DNA of 37,693 bases from Candidatus Aminicenantota bacterium. GTDB taxonomy: Bacteria; Acidobacteriota; Aminicenantia; Aminicenantales; UBA4085. The notes below the pieces were generated by a model. The model had not been told where the DNA came from, did no database searches, and worked only from the letters and a program-made list of their open reading frames with translations. Position 1 is the first letter of the stretch; each line of letters starts with the position of its first letter. The DNA lies in assembly GCA_022866045.1 (NCBI GenBank), contig JALHTW010000142.1, positions 1 through 37,693 on the forward strand, written 5' to 3'. Below are positions 12,576 through 28,307 of this stretch, piece after piece. The position numbers and the translations under genes are program-made.

Positions 12576-12724
12576 ATTGACTTTAAATTTGTGATATGAA
12601 TCCCCCTGCCCCCTTACACAATTAATTAATGGGACTTAGCCGGTCGGTCCTCTTCGTTCTTTTCCTTTTCGCCAAGCTTAACGTAGGATTGCGTATGCGT
12701 CACGGCTTGTCATTCTTTGTTAAT

Positions 12725-12900
12725 CTGAATTATTCATGAATTACGTTATCTCTCCCGGTCGTGAATTTGCAGCCGGACGCCGAATTCGGGGACATGACCC
12801 AAATTCTCCGGAATTTGGGATCGTGTCCCCCTCGTCTTGAATTCGGCGCCATCTGCGAATCCTCTTCTCGAGGAAACGACGAAATATATGAATAATTCAG
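12725..12900. mobile_element. 176-bp palindromic MITE-like element, full copy with 6-bp target duplication
   Basis: The element begins CTGAATTATTCATGAATT and ends with the inverted ATGAATAATTCAG. It is flanked on both sides by GTTAAT (12719-12724 and 12901-12906), a perfect 6-bp direct repeat. Inside, nested inverted repeats (GAATTTGCAG.. / ..CTGCGAATT, GGGGACA / TGTCCCC, and a central CCCAAATTC-TCCG-GAATTTGGG) let the whole unit fold into one hairpin. It encodes no protein. A copy of the same 176-bp length, differing at about 15 positions by hand count, is at 18291-18466. It fills most of the 497-bp gap between dnaE and the receiver-domain gene. The gap also holds the hairpin at 12539-12575 and a decayed C-tract repeat near 12597. 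Confidence 0.8.
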
Positions 12901-12985
12901 GTTAATTAGGGAAGAAAGAAATTCATTCTTGAAGAAAGCCAAATCTTAGGATACATTTAAGACGAGATTATTATTCGGAAAGACC

Positions 12986-15202: not shown

Positions 15203-15304
15203 ATCCCTCTCCCCTGATAGGAGAAGAGCGGGGTGAACTTGCATATCATTATGCGCTTCGCCCCTTCATTCCCTCCCATGGAGGGGAGCGGAAAAAAGGC
15301 AAGA

Positions 15305-15943
15305 ATGCTGGACGATAAAGAACAGAGTCGTTATTTTCAGGGGATTGCACGGCGTTTTCTGGCGCGGCGCGGCGCCCCGTTCTTCCTCTCGGCCAAGGAC
15401 CTGGACCTTGTCTCTTCCTGGGAGCAGGCCGGCATTCCTCTCCCAGTCGTCCTGGAAGGCATCGAAAAAGCTTTTGAGAACCACCGGAAAGGGCGGCGCG
15501 AGAGAGGCAAGATCTTGTCGATTTCGTTCTGCCGGGCGCAGGTAATGCGGGCCTTCGAGCAATGCCGCGACCGGAAGGTCGGGGGAACCCAGAAGACCGC
15601 GGAGCGCCGCGAAAAAAGGGTCCTTCTCCGATCGGAAATCGACCGATTTCTCAAGCGCCCTCCGCCCGGCCTTGAATTTTTAAGGGACATTTTTCTTGAA
15701 GCGCAGGAAAAACTGGGCCGCCCGGACAGTCCCGATGAGGTCCTTGAGCGGCTGGATGAGGAAACGGAAAGGCTCCTTTTGGCGAATGCCGACGCCGAAG
15801 AGCGTGCGGCCGTAGAAAAAGAGATCTTGGCTGAGCACCAGCGCCTGGGCCGGGAAGAGCTGGCTGCGGCGGTCGAGATCAAGATCGTCAAATATCTCCG
15901 GGACAAGCACCGAGTCCCCTATCTTTCTCCTTTTTATTATTAG
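15305..15943 (+). CDS. Conserved-looking helical protein of unknown function
   Basis: I do not recognise the family. The predicted protein has 212 residues from ATG 15305; the frame is open further up to GTG 15233, but that stretch covers a C/G-rich palindrome and reads as low-complexity. It is highly charged and probably all-helical. A hydrophobic core segment (GAPFFLSAKDLDLVSSWEQ) lies near residue 20, and long Glu/Arg-rich helices follow to the end (PYLSPFYY). No catalytic motif, signal peptide or membrane segment is visible. It lies between coaX and the RNase R gene on the same strand, which could hint at RNA work, but this is only position. Confidence 0.6.
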   Translation: MLDDKEQSRYFQGIARRFLARRGAPFFLSAKDLDLVSSWEQAGIPLPVVLEGIEKAFENHRKGRRERGKILSISFCRAQVMRAFEQCRDRKVGGTQKTAERREKRVLLRSEIDRFLKRPPPGLEFLRDIFLEAQEKLGRPDSPDEVLERLDEETERLLLANADAEERAAVEKEILAEHQRLGREELAAAVEIKIVKYLRDKHRVPYLSPFYY

Positions 15944-15970: not shown

Positions 15971-16018
15971 TAATCTTCCCTCTCCCCCTTTTGGCACAGG
16001 GGGGTATGGGGGGATTTT
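15971..16018. repeat. C-tract/G-tract palindromic repeat, copy 2
   Basis: AATC, C-rich (15972-15990) faces G-rich, GATT (15998-16017) around a 7-base loop. It is the same family as 375-419. It lies between the unknown gene and rnr and inflates the apparent N-terminus of rnr if the most upstream start (15991) is taken. Confidence 0.6.
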
Positions 16019-16044
16019 ATTCCTTGTTTGAGGTTCGATCTCAA

Positions 16045-18096
16045 ATGGACGAGCGCATTCTTAACCTCCTGCGGCGGAACCGGCAGGGACTGACCCTCCA
16101 GAATATCTTCAAGGAGCTGGCCGTTCCCCGCAAAGAACGGGCCAAGCTCGAGAGCCGCCTTATGAGTCTCGAGGGAAAAAAGCTTGTCCGCCGCGTCAAG
16201 AACCGCTACCTCCTCCCCCCCGCGTCCGACCTCCTCCGCGGCCGGTTCGAGACGACAGGCCGGGGATTCGGCTTCGTGATACCCGAAGATCGGGAGATGG
16301 AGGATGTCTTCGTTCCCGCCCGATTCGCCAAGGGCGCCATGGAGGGCGACATCGTCGAAATCCTCTTTAAGGAACGCGGCCAGAAGGACAAATCCGAAGG
16401 CCGGGTGGTGCGCATCCTCAAGAAGGAGAAGAAGAGCATCATCGGGCGGTACGACGAGCGGTTCGGGACACCGTTCCTCGTCCCCTTCGATACCCCTTCG
16501 CTCGAGGAGATCCCGCTTGTTTCCCGAGGGTCATTTTTCCCCTTGCCAGGGATGATCGTCGCTGCGGACCGGAGCCGTCTGACCATTACCGATGTTTTCG
16601 GGATGCCGGATGAACCGGGCGTCGACACCAAGGTCATCATCCGGAAATATGGACTGTCCGTGGAATTCCCCAACGCCGCGCTTGCCGAAGCCGAGGAGGT
16701 CGCCGGACGGCCTCTCTTTTCCGGCCAGGACGGACGCGTGGACTACCGGGGCTGGACGGCGTTCACCATCGACGGCGAGAAGGCGCAGGATTTCGACGAC
16801 GCCGTGAGCATCAAGAAGATCGAGGCCGGCGGTTACCTCCTCGGCGTTCATATCGCCGACGTTTCCTCCTACGTCGAGCCGGGTTCGGCGCTCGACCGCG
16901 AGGCGGAGACCCGCGGGACGAGCGTCTATTTCCCCGACCTGACCCTGCCCATGCTGCCGGAAAGGCTTTCCAACGACGTCTGCAGTCTGCGGCCTCGCGA
17001 GGACCGGCTGACGGTTTCGGCCGTGATGGAGATCGACGCCGCGGGGAACGTCCTCCGCGCGGATTTCCACCCGTCGATCATCCGGACGACCGAACGGCTG
17101 TCGTATACGTCCGTGTTCAAGATATTCGAAGGCGACGAGGCCGAGCGCCGAAGGCTTGCGCCCCTTGTTCCCGACCTGATGATGATGCGTAAGCTGGCCC
17201 GTCTCCTCCGCGAGAAGCGGGTGGCCGAAGGGAGCCTGAATTTCGACCTCCTCGAGCCCGAGCTCGTGTACAGCGAAGGCCGGCTTCATTCCATCGCGAC
17301 CTTCGCCCAGAACGAAGCGCACAAGCTCATTGAGGAATTCATGGTGGCGGCCAACGTCGCCGTCGCGTCATTTCTGGGAGGCAAAGGCATCCCATCACTC
17401 TACCGCGTCCATCCCCAGCCCGCGGTTTCGGACCTGGAAAAGCTCCGCGAAACCCTCGTCCACTTCGGGATTGTCCTTCCGAAGCCGGAAAAGATCCGGT
17501 CAGTGGACCTGGAGCGCGCTGTCCGCGAGGCCGAAGGAAAGCCCGGCGAAAAGTCCGTCAACGTCCAGGTGTTGCGGGCTCTCCGGCTGGCCGTTTATTC
17601 CGACGAGAACGTGGGGCATTACGGCCTCGCAAAGAAGGAATACACGCATTTTACATCTCCGATCCGCCGCTACCCCGACCTGATCGTCCACCGCATTTTG
17701 AAACAGGCGATCCGCGGGTTCCTCCCCGAAACGCCGTCGCTCGCCGCGATCGCGCTGCACGCCTCAGGACAGGAGCGGAAGGCCGACGGCGCCGAGCAGG
17801 ACCTTGTCGAGTGGCGGATCTTTCGGTTCCTCAAGGAAAAGCTGGGAGAGGAATTCACGGGTATCGTCGTCGACATCACCAGGGCGGGGCTGGTGGTGGA
17901 GCTCGACGATTATTTCGTCAAAGGGCTCTTAGCCTATGAAGATCTGGGCGGTGACTATTTCCGGCAAAAGACGAGGGCCGTCCTCGCCGGAAAGAGAACC
18001 GGAAAAAAGTTTGAGCTGGGGCAGACTCTTCGAGTGTCATTGGCAGCCGTGGACCCCGTTTTAAAGCGGATGAGTCTCGTATTGGCCGATCCATAA
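16045..18096 (+). CDS. rnr: Ribonuclease R (RNB family 3'-5' exoribonuclease)
   Basis: A processive, Mg-dependent 3'-5' exoribonuclease for structured RNA and mRNA decay. I start at ATG 16045, where GAGG lies 11 bases upstream, because the earlier part is repeat sequence; this gives 683 residues. An N-terminal winged helix (DERILNLLRRNRQGLT) is followed by cold-shock domains (GRFETTGRGFGFVIPED near 63). The RNB domain has the catalytic aspartates in DGEKAQDFDDAVSI near 245, VHIADVSSYV near 270 and YTHFTSPIRRYPDLIVHR near 533. One S1 domain lies at the C-terminus (about 605-683). The basic tail of long RNase R forms is missing. Confidence 0.93.
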   Translation: MDERILNLLRRNRQGLTLQNIFKELAVPRKERAKLESRLMSLEGKKLVRRVKNRYLLPPASDLLRGRFETTGRGFGFVIPEDREMEDVFVPARFAKGAMEGDIVEILFKERGQKDKSEGRVVRILKKEKKSIIGRYDERFGTPFLVPFDTPSLEEIPLVSRGSFFPLPGMIVAADRSRLTITDVFGMPDEPGVDTKVIIRKYGLSVEFPNAALAEAEEVAGRPLFSGQDGRVDYRGWTAFTIDGEKAQDFDDAVSIKKIEAGGYLLGVHIADVSSYVEPGSALDREAETRGTSVYFPDLTLPMLPERLSNDVCSLRPREDRLTVSAVMEIDAAGNVLRADFHPSIIRTTERLSYTSVFKIFEGDEAERRRLAPLVPDLMMMRKLARLLREKRVAEGSLNFDLLEPELVYSEGRLHSIATFAQNEAHKLIEEFMVAANVAVASFLGGKGIPSLYRVHPQPAVSDLEKLRETLVHFGIVLPKPEKIRSVDLERAVREAEGKPGEKSVNVQVLRALRLAVYSDENVGHYGLAKKEYTHFTSPIRRYPDLIVHRILKQAIRGFLPETPSLAAIALHASGQERKADGAEQDLVEWRIFRFLKEKLGEEFTGIVVDITRAGLVVELDDYFVKGLLAYEDLGGDYFRQKTRAVLAGKRTGKKFELGQTLRVSLAAVDPVLKRMSLVLADP

Positions 18097-18290
18097 ATTG
18101 GCTCTCTTCCATCTTTATGAAAATCTTAATGCGCGTCTCTGCTTCGAGAAGGCTGAACCTTCCCCGGTCGCTGCGGCCGTCCCTGGATCTTCTCGCTCAT
18201 TTTTGGCCGCAAATATTTATGGAAACGAGCGAGATAAGATAAAGCTCGAAAACGCGTCTTTGGAAATAATTCGGATGCCGTCTTTATAGT

Positions 18291-18466
18291 CTGGATTATT
18301 CATGAATTGCGTTGTATCTCCAGATCCTGAATTTGCAGACGGGCGCCGAATTCGGGGACATAACCCAAATTCTCCGGAATTTGGGATCGTGTCCCCCTCG
18401 TCTTGAATTCGGCGCCATCTGCGAATTTTCTTCTCGAGGAAACGGCGCAATTTATGAATAATTCAG
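18291..18466. mobile_element. 176-bp palindromic MITE-like element, second full copy
   Basis: It has the same length and nested symmetry as the copy at 12725-12900, beginning CTGGATTATTCATGAATT and ending ATGAATAATTCAG. Flanks are TATAGT (18285-18290) and GATAGA (18467-18472), matching at the central four bases, so the target duplication is decayed or unclear. It fills the 454-bp gap between rnr and the SelB-like gene. The other bases in that gap (18097-18290) hold nothing I can name. Confidence 0.8.
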
Positions 18467-18550
18467 GATAGAGAAAGACGGTGATGAATGTGATATTATA
18501 TTTTGGACATAGGAGCATATTCCCCGGGCATTTTGGTTGAGCCAGAAAGC

Positions 18551-19324
18551 ATGGAAAAAAAATCTGACGACGCTGCAATACTCCTAAAATTGACCTGCGA
18601 AAAAAAGCTCAAGGGCGTCCGCGAAATCGAAGCAAAGATCGTCCTGCCTTTAGATCACGACGAGATCATGGGTCTCGCCCAGAAGCTCGAGGGAGAGGGA
18701 AAGCTCCGGATCCTGTCATTCTCTCCGCTGTTCGTAGTGTCGAGGGAGAGCGTGGATTTTCTCGGTCGGAAGATCCTTCATTACCTCTCTGAATTTCATA
18801 AAAAAAATCCGAAGGAGAAGGGTGTCACGCTCGACAGGCTGAAAAAAAGATTCGACGCGCCGACGAAGGTCCTTTTCCTGGCGCTAAAGGCGCTCGTCCA
18901 CGAAAAGAGGCTCAAGCAGGACGGCCGCGTTTTCTTGCTTGCGGATTTCGAGCGTCAGCTCCCGCCCCGGGAAGAGCGGCTGCTCCGGCAACTCGAGGAG
19001 ATCTGTTTCGGGGGAGATCTCCACACGGTCTGCTTGAAAGACATCCAGGAGCGGTTTCACGTCATCCCCCAGAAGCTCCAGAGCATGTTGGACATTCTCA
19101 TCGAGCGGAAGAAGGTCGTCCGGAGCACCGAAGACTTTTTCATCCATGCCCGCTGGCTGGACGAGATCATCGGGAAGGTCCGGGGCTTGGGAAAGAAAGA
19201 ATTGACCGTGGCAGATTTCAAGGCGATGACCGGACTCAGCCGCAAGTATGCCATCCCGCTTCTCGAACTGCTCGATGAGATGGGCGTAACACGGCGCACG
19301 GGGCCGGGCAGAGAGATTTTATGA
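18551..19324 (+). CDS. Stand-alone SelB-type winged-helix protein without GTPase domain
   Basis: The 257-residue protein ends in a stretch typical of the last SelB winged helix: VADFKAMTGLSRKYAIPLLELLDEMGVTRR, closing GREIL. The region before it reads as a series of small helical/winged-helix units (for example FLGRKILHYLSEFHKKNPKEKG near 75 and LHTVCLKDIQERFHVIPQKL near 160). In SelB these domains bind the SECIS RNA hairpin and the ribosome. Here the EF-Tu-like GTPase part is absent, and no frame upstream could encode it (MITE and rnr precede). It may be an RNA- or DNA-binding remnant given a new job. Start: ATG 18551 is uncertain; TTG 18503 is also open, and neither has a clear ribosome site. 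Confidence 0.7.
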   Translation: MEKKSDDAAILLKLTCEKKLKGVREIEAKIVLPLDHDEIMGLAQKLEGEGKLRILSFSPLFVVSRESVDFLGRKILHYLSEFHKKNPKEKGVTLDRLKKRFDAPTKVLFLALKALVHEKRLKQDGRVFLLADFERQLPPREERLLRQLEEICFGGDLHTVCLKDIQERFHVIPQKLQSMLDILIERKKVVRSTEDFFIHARWLDEIIGKVRGLGKKELTVADFKAMTGLSRKYAIPLLELLDEMGVTRRTGPGREIL

Positions 19325-19411: not shown

Positions 19412-21526
19412 CTACTCTTTTTTCTTCTGTACGTCTTCTTGCCGCTTTTTCGTGAGCGCGGATTTGAGTTTTTCGGCAAAGAGATCCCCGAACATCCCTC
19501 CTGGGGACGCCGCGGGCTTAACGTCTTCCTTTTTAGGCTCTTCGGCCTCGACTTCCGGCTCGGCTTCCTCCGGGGCTTCGGCTTGAGCTTCGACGGCTCT
19601 GGCGGCCGGGGCTTCGGCTTCGGCCGCGGCGGCCTCGACTTCCTCTTCGTCCAACGCTTTCTCGGCATAGAGCGCTTCCATCTCGGATTCTTCTTCTTCA
19701 ATCCGTTCCTCGATGACGCGGCGTTCGCTTTTCTTGGCCCGCGGCGCCTTTTCGCCTTCGGTCTTGAGCTTTTTCTTCTTGTGCGGTTTTTCTCTCTTGG
19801 CCGCGGCTTCAGGCGTGGTTTTTTCGATGGCTCCGGCAGGCTCAGCTTCGAACGCAGCCTCTTCCCCGATCTCTTCGGAGATCTCATGGAGCGGGATCTC
19901 CGGAATGGCGATCTCCTCGAGGCCGGCCTCGGCCGGAATTCCCTCCGCTTCAGCGGCAGCCGCGGCGACTTCCTTAGCCGGCACGGCTTCCTGGTAACAG
20001 AAAATGCCCTTTTTCTTGTCGGATTTCGTGAATTCGGGAGAGTTGAGGAGCGTAAATTCGACATCTTCCTGGGACGTCTTTTTCAAGACGTCCAATAAGT
20101 GATAGGCGCGCAGATAATGAAGCGCATGATTCGCCGAGGGAAGGCTGAAATATTTGAAGATCAGAATGAGGAGCTCTTTGAGGTTGAGGTTGTCTCGCTG
20201 GGGATAGAGCGCGATGAGCTTCGCCAGGGTCTCGCGTTCGATAAAGATGATCTTGTTGGGCAAAGCGAGCGTTGCCGCTTCACCGGCGTCGGCGAATGTG
20301 TCGGTCGTCGGGTCATAGGTCAGCTTGGCGACGGCCAGCTTCTTTTTGGACTTCTTCAGCCAGAAGTTGAACTGGACCGTGTTTTTCCGTTCCAGGGTCA
20401 TGCTCGTCCCCTGAGGAATGTTGTTGGCGGCGAAATAATCCTTCAAGCCCAGGAAATAGCCCTGCTGGGGGCAATAATAGACGGTGTAGTTCTTGTTCTC
20501 GTCGGCGTCGGTGAAAATGTATTCCCGGGAGTGGGACAGCTCCTTGTTGAATGTCTTGGGGATCTTCACGCCGCCTGAAAGAATCTCCCTCCAGGTCAGA
20601 TAGACCTTGAGCGGGAACGCATGGAACGGCGTGACGTCAACGGGCTCGGCCGTATCGAATTCGGGAAGCGTCGCTTCATCGGCCGCCAGGGGCAGGTTTT
20701 CGGGGAGGGCGGAGAGGATGCTCTTGAGGTGCCATTTCCCCCACTCGAGCGGCGAGACCTGGATAAACTCTTTCTTGTATTTGGTCTCCAGGAGGTGGTT
20801 CAGCCCGAGGCAGTGGATGTCGAAGAGGTCGTGCGAGGCTTCGAAGCCGATGAATCTCTTGGTCAGGTCGCCGGTGGCCGCCGATTCCTTCGCGGCCGCA
20901 ATGTGGGCTTCCATCTCCTTGATCTTTTCCTCGGGGATGGCCGGCTGGTTGGCGGCGAGCTGCCAGAAATCGTTCCAGGCGAAGAACGCCGCTGATCTGG
21001 CCAGCGCCGTTCTCAGGTTCCTCTCAAGCGTCTTGAGGTCCTTGTCGGTCATCGGGAGTTCGGTCAGACGCGGGTCTTCTCCCTTGCCCAAAATCTTCGG
21101 CGGCTCGTTCGCGCCGCCGCAGTTCGCCGGGAGCAGGACCTGCGTCTTGGTTTTCTTCATATAGTCGATATACTTGCGGAACGTCCCGCCGCTCGCATAG
21201 TCGACCTCGAGCATCTCGCAGTTGAAGTTCTTATAAGGCACTTTTTTCACGACCGTCAAGACCACCGCGCCTTTGAAGGGCTCGACGGTCTTGCTGCTCA
21301 CCGCCAGGCGCTCGTCGTATTCCTTATAGATCGAGTCTCCCACCTGATAGACGCAGTTCGGATCGTAGATCTTTACGTCCTGCGTGCGCTGGGTAGCGGT
21401 CTTGAGGAAGGCCAGTTTCTCGACGAGCTCCCGGAGCATGAACGGCTTGCGCGACTTCGTCAGTTCCTGCTCGACAGAGGCGATATCGTCCGCCGTGACC
21501 TGGACGAGAGAATTGTCTTTATCCAT
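19412..21526 (-). CDS. Large protein of unknown function with acidic low-complexity tail
   Basis: I do not recognise this 704-residue protein. The N-terminus (DDIASVEQELTKSRKPFMLRELVEKLAFLKTAT) looks like a small helix-turn-helix domain. A possible beta-rich domain (about 325-420, SREYIFTDADENKNYTVYYC .. GTSMTLERKNTVQFNFWLKK) follows, then a helical part (to about 510). The last ~190 residues are Ala/Glu/Lys-rich, strongly charged and probably disordered (for example EERIEEEESEMEALYAEKAL), ending in a basic segment KLKSALTKKRQEDVQKKKE. No signal peptide or membrane helix is seen, so it is cytoplasmic. Its start overlaps the OTC stop by 8 bp, so it is the last gene of the arcC/OTC operon. A nucleic-acid-linked role, as in RNA polymerase delta with its HTH plus acidic tail, is only an analogy. 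Confidence 0.7.
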   Translation of the reverse strand: MDKDNSLVQVTADDIASVEQELTKSRKPFMLRELVEKLAFLKTATQRTQDVKIYDPNCVYQVGDSIYKEYDERLAVSSKTVEPFKGAVVLTVVKKVPYKNFNCEMLEVDYASGGTFRKYIDYMKKTKTQVLLPANCGGANEPPKILGKGEDPRLTELPMTDKDLKTLERNLRTALARSAAFFAWNDFWQLAANQPAIPEEKIKEMEAHIAAAKESAATGDLTKRFIGFEASHDLFDIHCLGLNHLLETKYKKEFIQVSPLEWGKWHLKSILSALPENLPLAADEATLPEFDTAEPVDVTPFHAFPLKVYLTWREILSGGVKIPKTFNKELSHSREYIFTDADENKNYTVYYCPQQGYFLGLKDYFAANNIPQGTSMTLERKNTVQFNFWLKKSKKKLAVAKLTYDPTTDTFADAGEAATLALPNKIIFIERETLAKLIALYPQRDNLNLKELLILIFKYFSLPSANHALHYLRAYHLLDVLKKTSQEDVEFTLLNSPEFTKSDKKKGIFCYQEAVPAKEVAAAAAEAEGIPAEAGLEEIAIPEIPLHEISEEIGEEAAFEAEPAGAIEKTTPEAAAKREKPHKKKKLKTEGEKAPRAKKSERRVIEERIEEEESEMEALYAEKALDEEEVEAAAAEAEAPAARAVEAQAEAPEEAEPEVEAEEPKKEDVKPAASPGGMFGDLFAEKLKSALTKKRQEDVQKKKE

Positions 21527-23447: not shown

Positions 23448-24752
23448 TCAGAACTTTTGCAGCACGTCTTCGAGGGTTGGGGTGCCGATCTCTTCGAGCT
23501 CGTAACCCACGGGGAGCATGGGCTGGCGGGTCGTGATCAGGCGGTTGAGGTCGATCGGCGTGGCGGAGATGATCAGGTCGCAATCGATCTTGGCGATGGT
23601 CTCGGCCAGTTCATTAATCTGTGTCTCGCTGTAGCCCATGGCCGGCAGGACCTTATCGAGATGTCTGTATTTTTCAAAGGTCTTCCTAATGCTTCCCCCG
23701 GCCGCAGGCCTGGGGTCGATGATCTGGGCCGCGCCGTATTTCTGGGCCGCGACGACACCCGCGCCATAGGTCATTCCGCCGTGGGTCACGGTCGGGCCGT
23801 CCTCGATGACGAGCACGCGTTTGCCGCGGATCCGCTCGCCGTTCTCGACGATGGTCGGCGAGTTGGCTCGGATAATCGTGGCGGTCGGGTTGATCATTTT
23901 GATGTTGGCCAGGATTTTGTCCACGCCGTCCTTGGGGGCCGTGTCGATCTTGTTGATGATTAGCACCTGAGCCCGGCGGAAGTTGGTCTCGCCGGGGTAA
24001 TAGAGAAGTTCGTGCCCAGCGCGGTGGGGGTCGACGACCACGATCTCGAGGTCGGACTTATAGAAGGGGAAGTCGTTGTTCCCGCCGTCCCAGAGGATGA
24101 TGTCGGCCTCGGCTTCGGCCTCGCGGAGGATGGCTTCGTAATCGACTCCAGCATAGACGACGATGCCATTCTTCACGTGGGGTTCGTATTCTTCGCGCTC
24201 TTCGATCGTGCATTCATGCTTGGCCATGTCGTCATACGTGGCGAAGCGCTGGACTTTTTGCTTCTCCAGGTCGCCGTACGGCATCGGATGGCGGATGACC
24301 ACCACGCTCCGGCCTTTTTTCTTAAGGAGAAGGGCGACTTTTCTTGACGTCTGGCTCTTGCCGCATCCAGTGCGGACAGCGCAGACCGAAAGGAGAGGTT
24401 TCTTGCTTTTGACCATCGTGTCCTGGGGGCCGAGGAGGACGTAGCTCGCGCCCGCAGCCTGGACCTGGGAAGCCTTGTGCATCACATATTCGTGCGAGAC
24501 ATCGCTATAGGAAAAATAGACCTTGGTTACGCCGTGTTTCCGGATCAGGTGGTCGAGGTCTTCTTCGGCGTAGATCGGGATCCCGTTGGGGTAGAGCTTG
24601 CCCGCAAGAGAGGCAGGATATTTCCTGCCCTCGATGTCGGGGATCTGCGTGGCCGTAAAGGCGACGACCTGGAAATTCGGGTTGTCTCGGAAATACGTGT
24701 TGAAATTATGAAAGTCTCGCCCGGCAGCGCCCATGATGATGACTTTTTTCAT
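23448..24752 (-). CDS. Cyclic 2,3-diphosphoglycerate synthetase-like P-loop protein
   Basis: The 434-residue protein resembles archaeal cyclic 2,3-diphosphoglycerate synthetase. An N-terminal Rossmann-like region starts VIIMGAAGRDFHNFNTYFRDN. The nucleotide-binding part begins CAVRTGCGKSQTSRK near residue 124, then DIILWDGGNNDFPF near 216, VVDPHRAGHELLYYPGE near 236, NKIDT near 264 (a GTPase-like base-recognition motif) and VIEDGPTVTHGGM near 312. In archaea the enzyme makes a compatible solute, but bacterial members next to carbamate kinase and OTC, as here, probably do something else and have no tested role that I know. First gene of the operon, with a strong ribosome site (GAGG, 5 bases) and a promoter/operator upstream. 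Confidence 0.82.
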   Translation of the reverse strand: MKKVIIMGAAGRDFHNFNTYFRDNPNFQVVAFTATQIPDIEGRKYPASLAGKLYPNGIPIYAEEDLDHLIRKHGVTKVYFSYSDVSHEYVMHKASQVQAAGASYVLLGPQDTMVKSKKPLLSVCAVRTGCGKSQTSRKVALLLKKKGRSVVVIRHPMPYGDLEKQKVQRFATYDDMAKHECTIEEREEYEPHVKNGIVVYAGVDYEAILREAEAEADIILWDGGNNDFPFYKSDLEIVVVDPHRAGHELLYYPGETNFRRAQVLIINKIDTAPKDGVDKILANIKMINPTATIIRANSPTIVENGERIRGKRVLVIEDGPTVTHGGMTYGAGVVAAQKYGAAQIIDPRPAAGGSIRKTFEKYRHLDKVLPAMGYSETQINELAETIAKIDCDLIISATPIDLNRLITTRQPMLPVGYELEEIGTPTLEDVLQKF

Positions 24753-26537: not shown

Positions 26538-27191
26538 ATGAACAACGGCAACAAAATAAGAATGGGCAAGGACGCGGAGGACGCTCTGGAGGTCTTGAGG
26601 CACAGCGCTTCGCACCTCCTCGCCCAGGCCGTCCTTGAGCTTTTCCCCGGGACCCAGGCCGGCATCGGCCCCGCCGTAGAAAACGGCTTTTATTACGACT
26701 TTTTGCGCGGCCAGCCGTTCAGCATCCAGGACCTGGAAGCGATCGAAAACAAGATGCGCGAGCTCGCGGCCGAGAACATTCCCATCGAGAAAGTAAGGCT
26801 GCCGAAGGACGAGGCGATCCGGCTGTTCGCGGAAAAAGGCCAGACACTCAAAGTCGAGCTTATTCAAGAAAAAGCGGGCGACGAAGTCTCTTCCTTCCGT
26901 CAAGGGAACTTCATCGATTTTTGCCTGGGGCCGCACGTGGCTTCGACAGGCACGGTCCAGCATTTCAAGCTGTTATCCGTTTCCGGGGCGTACTGGAAGG
27001 GCGACGAGAAGGGCCAGCAGCTCCAGCGCATTTACGGGACGGCGTTCTTCACCAAACAGGAGCTTGATGACCACCTCCAGCTTCTCGAGGAGGCAAAAAA
27101 AAGAGACCATCGCCGGCTCGGCCCCGAGCTCGACCTCTTCAGCTTCAACGAGGATTTGGGCGCCGGGCTGGTCCTCTGGCATCCCAAGTGA
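26538..27191 (+). CDS. thrS: Threonyl-tRNA synthetase, N-terminal part, ended by in-frame TGA
   Basis: This 217-residue frame is the first third of ThrRS. It lacks the usual N-terminal TGS domain and begins at the editing domain: HSASHLLAQAV near residue 26 (HxxxH metal/editing site), NGFYYDF near 49 and DFCLGPHVASTG near 128. It reaches the first catalytic segment GLVLWHPK and stops at TGA 27189-27191. In other ThrRSs WHPK is followed by Gly, and the next codons here (AVVRQVIENFW) continue the family in the same frame, so a GGA-to-TGA change explains it. There is no room for a TGS domain, because tRNA-Val lies 166 bp upstream. ThrRS is essential, so recoding, a sequence error or another thrS copy must be considered. 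Confidence 0.9.
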   Translation: MNNGNKIRMGKDAEDALEVLRHSASHLLAQAVLELFPGTQAGIGPAVENGFYYDFLRGQPFSIQDLEAIENKMRELAAENIPIEKVRLPKDEAIRLFAEKGQTLKVELIQEKAGDEVSSFRQGNFIDFCLGPHVASTGTVQHFKLLSVSGAYWKGDEKGQQLQRIYGTAFFTKQELDDHLQLLEEAKKRDHRRLGPELDLFSFNEDLGAGLVLWHPK

Positions 27192-27197
27192 GCCGTC

Positions 27198-27230
27198 GTC
27201 CGCCAGGTGATCGAAAACTTCTGGCGTGAC
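27198..27230 (+). promoter_or_regulatory. Stem-loop just after the in-frame TGA of thrS
   Basis: GTC-CGCCAG (27198-27206) pairs with CTGGCG-(T)-GAC (27221-27230), leaving one bulged T and a 14-base loop that begins with G. The stem starts 6 bases after the TGA and the apical loop 15 bases after it. Spacing, bulge and loop G are loosely like bacterial SECIS elements, but no selenoprotein is expected here. Confidence 0.35.
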
Positions 27231-28307
27231 GAGCATACCAAGGCGGGCTACGATTACCTATATACGCCGCATATAGCCAAGCTCGATGTCTGGCGCCGCT
27301 CCGGCCATACCGAATATTACGACGCCATGTTCCCGCCGCTCGAACTCGAGGGGCTTGAATTCGAGCTCAAACCCATGAATTGCCCCTTTCACATCATGGT
27401 CTATAATTCACGCCAGCATAGCTACCGTGACCTTCCGCTGCGGTACGCCGAGCTCGGCACCGTGTACCGCTACGAGCGGAGCGGAGTTCTCCATGGACTC
27501 CTGCGTGTCCGTGGCTTTACTCAGGACGACGCCCATATCTTCTGCCGCGGCGACCAGCTTGAGGACGAGATCATCGGCGTCGTGCGCCTGGCCTGCCGGC
27601 TATTCACCGCGTTCGGGTTCGAGGATTACGATATTTACCTCTCCACCCGGCCGGAGAGGTATGTGGGGAGTCTCGAGGACTGGAACAAAGCCGAAGCGGC
27701 CCTAGAGGAGGCCCTCAAAGCCGCGGGGCTGCCCTATCGGGTGGATGTCGGCGAAGGCGTGTTCTACGGCCCGAAGATCGATATCAAGGTTAAGGACGTC
27801 CTCAAGCGTGCCTGGCAGTGCACCACGGTCCAACTCGATTTCACCTTATCCGAGCGCTTCGACCTCAAATATATCGGCGAGGACGGCAAAGAGCACCGGC
27901 CGTTCATGATCCACCGGGCCCTTCTCGGCTCGCTCGAGCGGTTCTTCGGCTTGTTGATCGAGCAATTCAACGGCAATTTTCCGCTGTGGCTCGCGCCCGT
28001 TCAGGTCGAAGTCATCCCCATCGCTGAACGCCATCATGAATACGCCTTGAAGCTCGATGCCCTCCTCAAGGATAACAAGATCCGCTCCCACGTCGACCTG
28101 CGCCGGGAGAAGATCAACTACAAGATTCGCGAGGCCGAGCATCAAAAGGTCCCTCTCCTTCTGGTCGTAGGAGACAAGGAGGTGGCCGCGAATTTCGCCT
28201 CGCTCCGCATTCATGGCCAGGGCGACAAGGGCCGGGTGGACGTTGCCGAATTCCTTGCAAAAGTCAAACAATTGAATGACAATAAATCCCTAACCGTGAA
28301 TTTTTAA
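27207..28307 (+). CDS. thrS: Threonyl-tRNA synthetase, catalytic and anticodon-binding part
   Basis: It is the same reading frame as 26538-27191 and continues ThrRS without loss. The class II core is complete: KPMNCPFH (Zn ligand Cys), motif 2 YRYERSGVLHGLLRVRGFTQDDAHIFC, EGVFYGPKID, QCTTVQLDF, and motif 3 with Zn ligand His (MIHRALLGSLERFFGLLIE). The anticodon-binding domain (LAPVQVEVIPI .. to the end) closes it. GTG 27207 could start translation only weakly, since no ribosome site precedes it. The full gene 26538-28307 would code 589 residues plus the TGA. It is the head of thrS-infC-rpmI-rplT-pheS-pheT. Confidence 0.92.
   Translation: MIENFWRDEHTKAGYDYLYTPHIAKLDVWRRSGHTEYYDAMFPPLELEGLEFELKPMNCPFHIMVYNSRQHSYRDLPLRYAELGTVYRYERSGVLHGLLRVRGFTQDDAHIFCRGDQLEDEIIGVVRLACRLFTAFGFEDYDIYLSTRPERYVGSLEDWNKAEAALEEALKAAGLPYRVDVGEGVFYGPKIDIKVKDVLKRAWQCTTVQLDFTLSERFDLKYIGEDGKEHRPFMIHRALLGSLERFFGLLIEQFNGNFPLWLAPVQVEVIPIAERHHEYALKLDALLKDNKIRSHVDLRREKINYKIREAEHQKVPLLLVVGDKEVAANFASLRIHGQGDKGRVDVAEFLAKVKQLNDNKSLTVNF

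Follow-up and report, generated by a model that had tools for sequence, protein, structure and literature searches.

A Candidatus Aminicenantota genome (GCA_022866045.1; order Aminicenantales) carries on contig JALHTW010000142.1 an open reading frame whose product resembles the C-terminal end of SelB and has nothing of its GTPase. The locus raises the question of whether such a gene is a broken piece of selB, a component of selenocysteine (Sec) decoding or a protein with a job of its own. We analysed the whole 37,693-nucleotide stretch around it (the window), together with related genomes. A sequence-only reading of the window had described the gene as an orphan SelB winged-helix protein without an EF-Tu-like domain, had taken its C-terminal motif as a hallmark of SelB, and had offered as possible roles a competitor or regulator of UGA decoding or a repurposed RNA-binding protein, perhaps tied to an in-frame UGA in the nearby thrS. 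Profile searches with the SelB-wing families, structure prediction and a search of the genome for selB, selA and tRNA-Sec were named there as checks, and all of these were carried out.

Sequence profiles, sequence comparison and structure agree on the identity of the protein, which we call the orphan (Table 1). Pfam SelB-wing_3 matched residues 215–253 (2.7e-16) and SelB-wing_2 residues 77–126 (4.1e-9), both above the gathering score, and phmmer against the PDB aligned residues 21–255 with Moorella SelB (1LVA) at approximately 1e-19. The AlphaFold model (mean pLDDT 89.2) shows four winged helices (WH1–WH4); Foldseek ranked 1LVA first for this model (E 1.9e-16), with other SelB structures next, among them fragments of SelB determined together with SECIS RNA. 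Pfam FeoC stayed below its threshold (14.2 against 21 bits), and DNA-binding regulators were found far below the SelB structures in the fold ranking, although such a ranking leaves room for DNA binding. The orphan is thus confirmed as a homologue of SelB domain IV, and its start position agrees with that of its relatives, whose proteins begin at an equivalent place. With regard to the C-terminal motif, it does mark the RNA-binding end of SelB as had been proposed, but it covers WH4 alone, while the protein has all four winged helices.

Table 1. Features of the orphan locus in the window, and positions of a palindrome found beside the orphan in related loci
Feature	Position	Strand	Evidence
rnr (RNase R), the gene directly before the orphan throughout the order	15991..18096	+	TIGR02063, 656.8 bits; adjacency
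Palindromic repeat element, ~185 bp, MITE/REP-like, between rnr and the orphan	18287..18475		Inverted arms 18291-18318/18439-18466; copies; DNA fold
Orphan SelB relative without GTPase (WH1–WH4), 257 aa	18551..19324	+	ORF call (ATG 18551 to TGA 19324, 257 codons), Pfam, NCBIfam, PDB sequence, AlphaFold, Foldseek
WH1, residues 1–64	18551..18742	+	Model secondary structure; matches 2V9V/1LVA
WH2, residues 65–130	18743..18940	+	Pfam SelB-wing_2; model
WH3, residues 139–199	18965..19147	+	Model; Foldseek match 1WSU
WH4, residues 200–257, SECIS-hairpin-binding module in SelB	19148..19321	+	Pfam SelB-wing_3; identity
WH4 core FKAMTGLSRKYAIPLLELLDEMGVTRRT, residues 223–250	19217..19300	+	79.2% mean pairwise identity, 55 orphans
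CCTACTANNNTAGTAGG sites	L084 8808-8824; L088 7936-7952; L089 7933-7949; L091 8811-8827; L092 7934-7950; L093 8801-8817		

The remainder of SelB is missing at this locus. No G motifs or GTPase domain were found in the open reading frame, neither the frame nor the model of the window copy contains EF-Tu-like domains II and III, and a tblastn search with the SelB G domain (residues 1–265) against 79 orphan loci returned a single chance match (E 7.1). The absence of an EF-Tu-like domain thus held up. The NCBIfam selB profile is matched over positions 407–576 of 581, which is its last third, at 37.8 bits as compared to a full-length cut-off of 242. The genome of the window (3.28 Mb, 365 contigs) nevertheless has a complete selB on another contig (C257:4654-6549, 345 bits), with selA about 1.4 kb upstream (C257:1897-3261) and, just behind selB, the start of a tRNA gene with a UCA anticodon (tRNA-Sec, read by eye) that is cut by the contig end. 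Since a normal selA–selB–tRNA-Sec system coexists with it, the orphan is not a split half of SelB; the intact selB and the lack of any G-domain relic at the orphan loci also ruled out an overlooked GTPase.

It is also evident that the orphan is not a local fragment, as it recurs through the class. As a match separate from SelB it was present in 58 of the 59 genomes of the order, and in the one exception (G004) a true absence was rejected, rnr being broken off by the end of the contig at the very point where the orphan would be expected. At class level (Ca. Aminicenantes) 135 of 142 genomes gave a match, SelB matches counted in. In the families outside the order (f8 to f12) all frames among the matches listed were 253–498 aa long, except for one 892-codon frame fused with pgi. 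The phylum search produced matches in 288 of 396 genomes; outside the class these were, among the matches listed, mainly frames of SelB length (~620–700 aa), the shorter ones being G207 (289 aa), G379 (478 aa), G400 (564 aa) and one of the two G337 matches (580 aa). G207, the one short frame examined, was rejected as an orphan outside the class, being a frame-split SelB with the GTPase part upstream. Viral contigs gave 34 pattern matches with no relative among them, and each of the eight plasmid records matched was annotated as selB of Terrisporobacter.

The orphans of the different families differ in how much of SelB they have retained. When their profiles were compared with six Acidobacteriota SelBs, the f11 proteins (~470–497 aa) aligned from SelB residue 203 to the end (7e-25), corresponding to domains II, III and IV, most proteins of the order (~360 aa) from residue 268 through the C-terminus (E 1.4e-48), corresponding to domains III and IV, and the f12 proteins from residue ~350 to the end (1.3e-21), corresponding to domain IV, with their N-terminal part unaligned. 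In the window's own family (f1) domain IV alone remains. As judged by these alignments, the family displays a stepwise N-terminal loss, from II+III+IV through III+IV to IV. A model of one long form (L066, pLDDT 91) is in line with the domain assignment: its tail compared with 1LVA by VIA gave a Z of 17.6, and its N-terminal barrel matched EF-Tu/SelB domain III with a Z of ~11. With a G domain missing from every copy examined and the EF-Tu-like barrels in an eroded state, the orphan appears very unlikely to deliver tRNA.

The orphans also stand apart phylogenetically. A careful, unrooted tree of 64 rows placed 36 orphans (the order and f8–f11) opposite 28 SelBs with a branch support of 100/100; the f12 rows were left out of it, as were two long-branch sequences, E. 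coli SelB and L186. When nine f12 rows were included in a quick tree, all 45 orphans stayed together (SH-aLRT 98), with long branches there. The rows of the quick tree were a selection, comprising the window and 24 of the 58 other loci of the order, 11 sequences from f8–f11, nine from f12, 14 Aminicenantia SelBs, 14 other Acidobacteriota SelBs and two references. The SelBs of the order formed a clade of their own, and the orphans were closer to SelBs from other Acidobacteriota (92/89) than to those of their own order. A topology joining the orphans to the order's SelBs was not rejected (AU p 0.22), and we therefore make no claim as to the source of the gene.

In 11 of 12 close pairs of orphans dN/dS was 0.09–0.38, the remaining pair being saturated. 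An alignment of 55 of the 59 orphans of the order (L068, L076, L100 and L101 were excluded as near-copy, doubtful start or fragments) gave mean pairwise identities of 41.7, 35.6 and 40.4% for WH1, WH2 and WH3, and 64.9% for WH4, with 18 invariant columns located mostly inside WH4. The orphan family is accordingly a working gene under purifying selection. If the orphan were a functionless selB fragment in decay, the step-by-step disappearance of its N-terminal domains and the repeat element inserted in front of the window copy would be readily accounted for; its retention throughout the order and class, the low dN/dS values and the invariant columns reduce the chance of this to next to nothing, and the family-wide conservation already refutes it for the family as a whole.

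The conserved stretch of WH4 we take to be where SelB holds its SECIS contacts, presumably with a role for Arg606 of Moorella SelB; R231 of the orphan aligns with this residue in the phmmer alignment. Since the WH4 sequence that grips SECIS hairpins has been kept almost unchanged, the orphan is likely to bind a particular RNA hairpin. It should be underlined that WH4 is well conserved among SelBs too, so that part of its conservation in the orphans may be structural. We infer RNA binding from conservation, and winged helices are also able to bind DNA or proteins; of the roles that the sequence-only reading had offered, a repurposed RNA-binding protein is nonetheless the best supported.

The other of these roles places the free tail in Sec decoding, where it would occupy SECIS hairpins and compete with SelB, tuning or blocking it. 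A complete Sec gene set in the same genome and a WH4 motif like that of SelB are what such a regulator would call for. The distribution of the orphan argues against it. selB was found at or above the cut-off in 19 of the 59 genomes of the order and selA in 22, the 19 falling within the 22, and strong tRNA-Sec matches (>60 bits) were obtained in 13 genomes. The remaining 37 genomes have neither selA nor selB above the cut-off and every one of them keeps the orphan, which in these 37 of 59 does not co-occur with the Sec trait (selA, tRNA-Sec) in the way expected of SelB. Among high-quality genomes, 23 of 39 lack any selA match. Moreover, WH4 identity hardly differs between orphans from genomes with selA (69.3%, 21 sequences) and from genomes without selA (64.0%, 34 sequences), and in the window the orphan has no sel genes nearby. 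A link to selenocysteine is thus not supported, and regulation of UGA decoding as a general role is highly improbable; the orphan may have such a role in Sec-positive genomes alone. Because the orphan is kept where Sec is no longer used, the tail probably has a new RNA-binding job. For the same reason, namely the 37 of 59 genomes with an orphan and without selA or selB above the cut-off, a SelB-wing match should not be annotated as proof of selenocysteine decoding. Rfam detected only a tRNA in the window, and no SECIS-like hairpin tied to the orphan gene was found. As a separate observation, the selB frame comprises ~1050 codons in some genomes of group g10 (L111, L112, L113 and L115), where additional sequence precedes the SelB winged-helix region.

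The suggested connection to thrS was rejected. This gene (26538-28307), the only thrS over the cut-off in the genome, contains a single in-frame TGA at 27189-27191, and of the 28 thrS genes that reached the cut-off in a set of 30 genomes this one alone has an in-frame stop. The UGA sits at a glycine codon (WHPK-Gly-A), which is Gly in 25 of 27 relatives' loci, the pattern being not found or located elsewhere in the other two. The TGA is a point change or an assembly error at a glycine codon and unrelated to the orphan, the proximity of thrS reflecting ordinary conserved synteny. Other options for this TGA are a sequencing error, a pseudogene or suppression.

With regard to the surrounding genes, 54 of the 58 order loci have rnr upstream in the same orientation, and contig edges truncate the remaining four. 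In 20 of these 54 loci the rnr stop and the orphan start overlap by 4 nt, a mark of translational coupling, although the count is rough because start codons were chosen mechanically. The position directly after the RNase R gene, often with this overlap, is our reason for proposing co-translation with RNase R. Outside the order the gene order is rnr-pgi-orphan in f9–f11 (pgi named from the sequence by eye) and pgi-orphan in f8, where no rnr was seen nearby; the f12 copies are located elsewhere. In one f8 genome (L155 4180-6855) glucose-6-phosphate isomerase (identified by eye) and the orphan form the single 892-codon frame, connected by a charged linker. Since the whole neighbourhood is conserved in the order, as a wider block birA-coaX-rnr-orphan ... 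argF-arcC-...-thrS, the adjacency to rnr may be plain synteny, and we regard the RNase R link as suggestive, not strong. The block-conserved proteins at 19412-21526 (-), 23448-24752 (-) and 15233-15943 (+) had no Pfam match at E 1e-4. In the window genome the gap between rnr and the orphan has been widened to 454 nt by the repeat element listed in Table 1, which exists in ~40 copies in the genome at 82–96% identity (DNA fold z -10); a second copy in the window is found at 12721-12904.

The coupling to rnr or pgi genes is also consistent with a scaffold, in which the arm placing SelB on the ribosome has been kept as a docking piece for the ribosome or RNase R and grips no specific RNA hairpin. 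SelB acts on the ribosome, and domain III is retained in most forms of the orphan. However, domain III is poorly conserved and gone altogether in the window's family, whereas the constrained end is the RNA-binding WH4, and we consider a scaffold unlikely. In one genus (g15), six loci carry a palindrome, CCTACTANNNTAGTAGG, close behind the 3' end of the orphan and between convergent genes. Each of the six g15 genomes tested has 3–8 copies of it and the two tested genomes of other genera have none; it resembles a motif of a small regulon or a terminator. Together with the widespread use of winged helices for DNA binding, it could point to a transcription factor, the tail now binding DNA and, for instance, autoregulating its operon. 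What persists in the orphan is nevertheless the SelB-specific WH4 sequence and the four-winged-helix layout of 1LVA, and the palindrome, apart from its position between convergent genes, is limited to one genus of the three tested; a DNA-binding role is accordingly quite unlikely.

On balance we favour the reading that the gene is the remnant of an old SelB, minus the GTPase and tRNA-binding parts, which has been reused as a stand-alone putative RNA-hairpin-binding protein. The course of events could have been that a SelB lost its G domain and then its N-terminal barrels, domain IV being retained as a free protein that would grip a particular RNA hairpin through WH4. In the order the orphan would be co-translated with RNase R, and might hold, mark or shield structured RNA (mRNA or rRNA hairpins) handled by this enzyme. 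That the orphan and RNase R would act together on structured RNA is the weakest step and is put forward tentatively, with a plain translational or decay regulator as the fallback. Rather unlikely in its entirety is the most far-reaching version, a class-wide and ancient exaptation of the SECIS-recognition arm into a free hairpin-binding factor that works with RNase R, independently of Sec, as an adaptor or guard for RNA decay. Known as an accessory in selenocysteine insertion, the C-terminal arm of SelB has here survived the loss of the GTPase and, in the majority of genomes, that of the Sec trait. That its best-kept part is WH4, the RNA-gripping module, raises the question of which hairpin it would now bind.

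In the open-access literature searched (subscription papers and preprints lay outside the search) we found no description of a GTPase-less SelB tail. The orphan resembles domain IV of SelB (M. thermoacetica structures 1LVA, 1WSU, 2PLY and 2UWM) in the order and fold of its four winged helices, and the WH4 motif SRKY...PLLE.LD...TRR is common to both; the long forms also share the EF-Tu-like domain III with SelB, and the f11 forms domain II as well. Unlike SelB, no copy examined has a G domain, domains II and III are eroded to varying degrees, and the orphan has its own branch in the tree, occurs without selA and selB, and is found beside rnr or pgi instead of sel genes. Pseudogenes that follow recent Sec loss, such as in Yersinia pestis CO92 (PMC1273633), likewise represent a selB damaged once Sec decoding has gone. 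They are recent frameshifts in strains of a single species, whereas the orphan is old, spread across the class and subject to purifying selection. Among published systems, the closest parallel we found is the archaeal aSelBL group, SelB-like proteins in organisms that do not use selenocysteine, which are described as commoner there than true SelB and without an assigned function (BMC Evol Biol 2011, PMC3037878). Like aSelBL, the orphan is a SelB relative kept without selenocysteine, but the two have kept opposite halves: aSelBL has the EF-Tu-like core with a damaged GTPase and no C-terminal SECIS extension, while the orphan consists of the C-terminal arm alone with no GTPase (PMC3037878). If the proposed reading is true, the RNase R-linked hairpin factor would be the mirror image of aSelBL.
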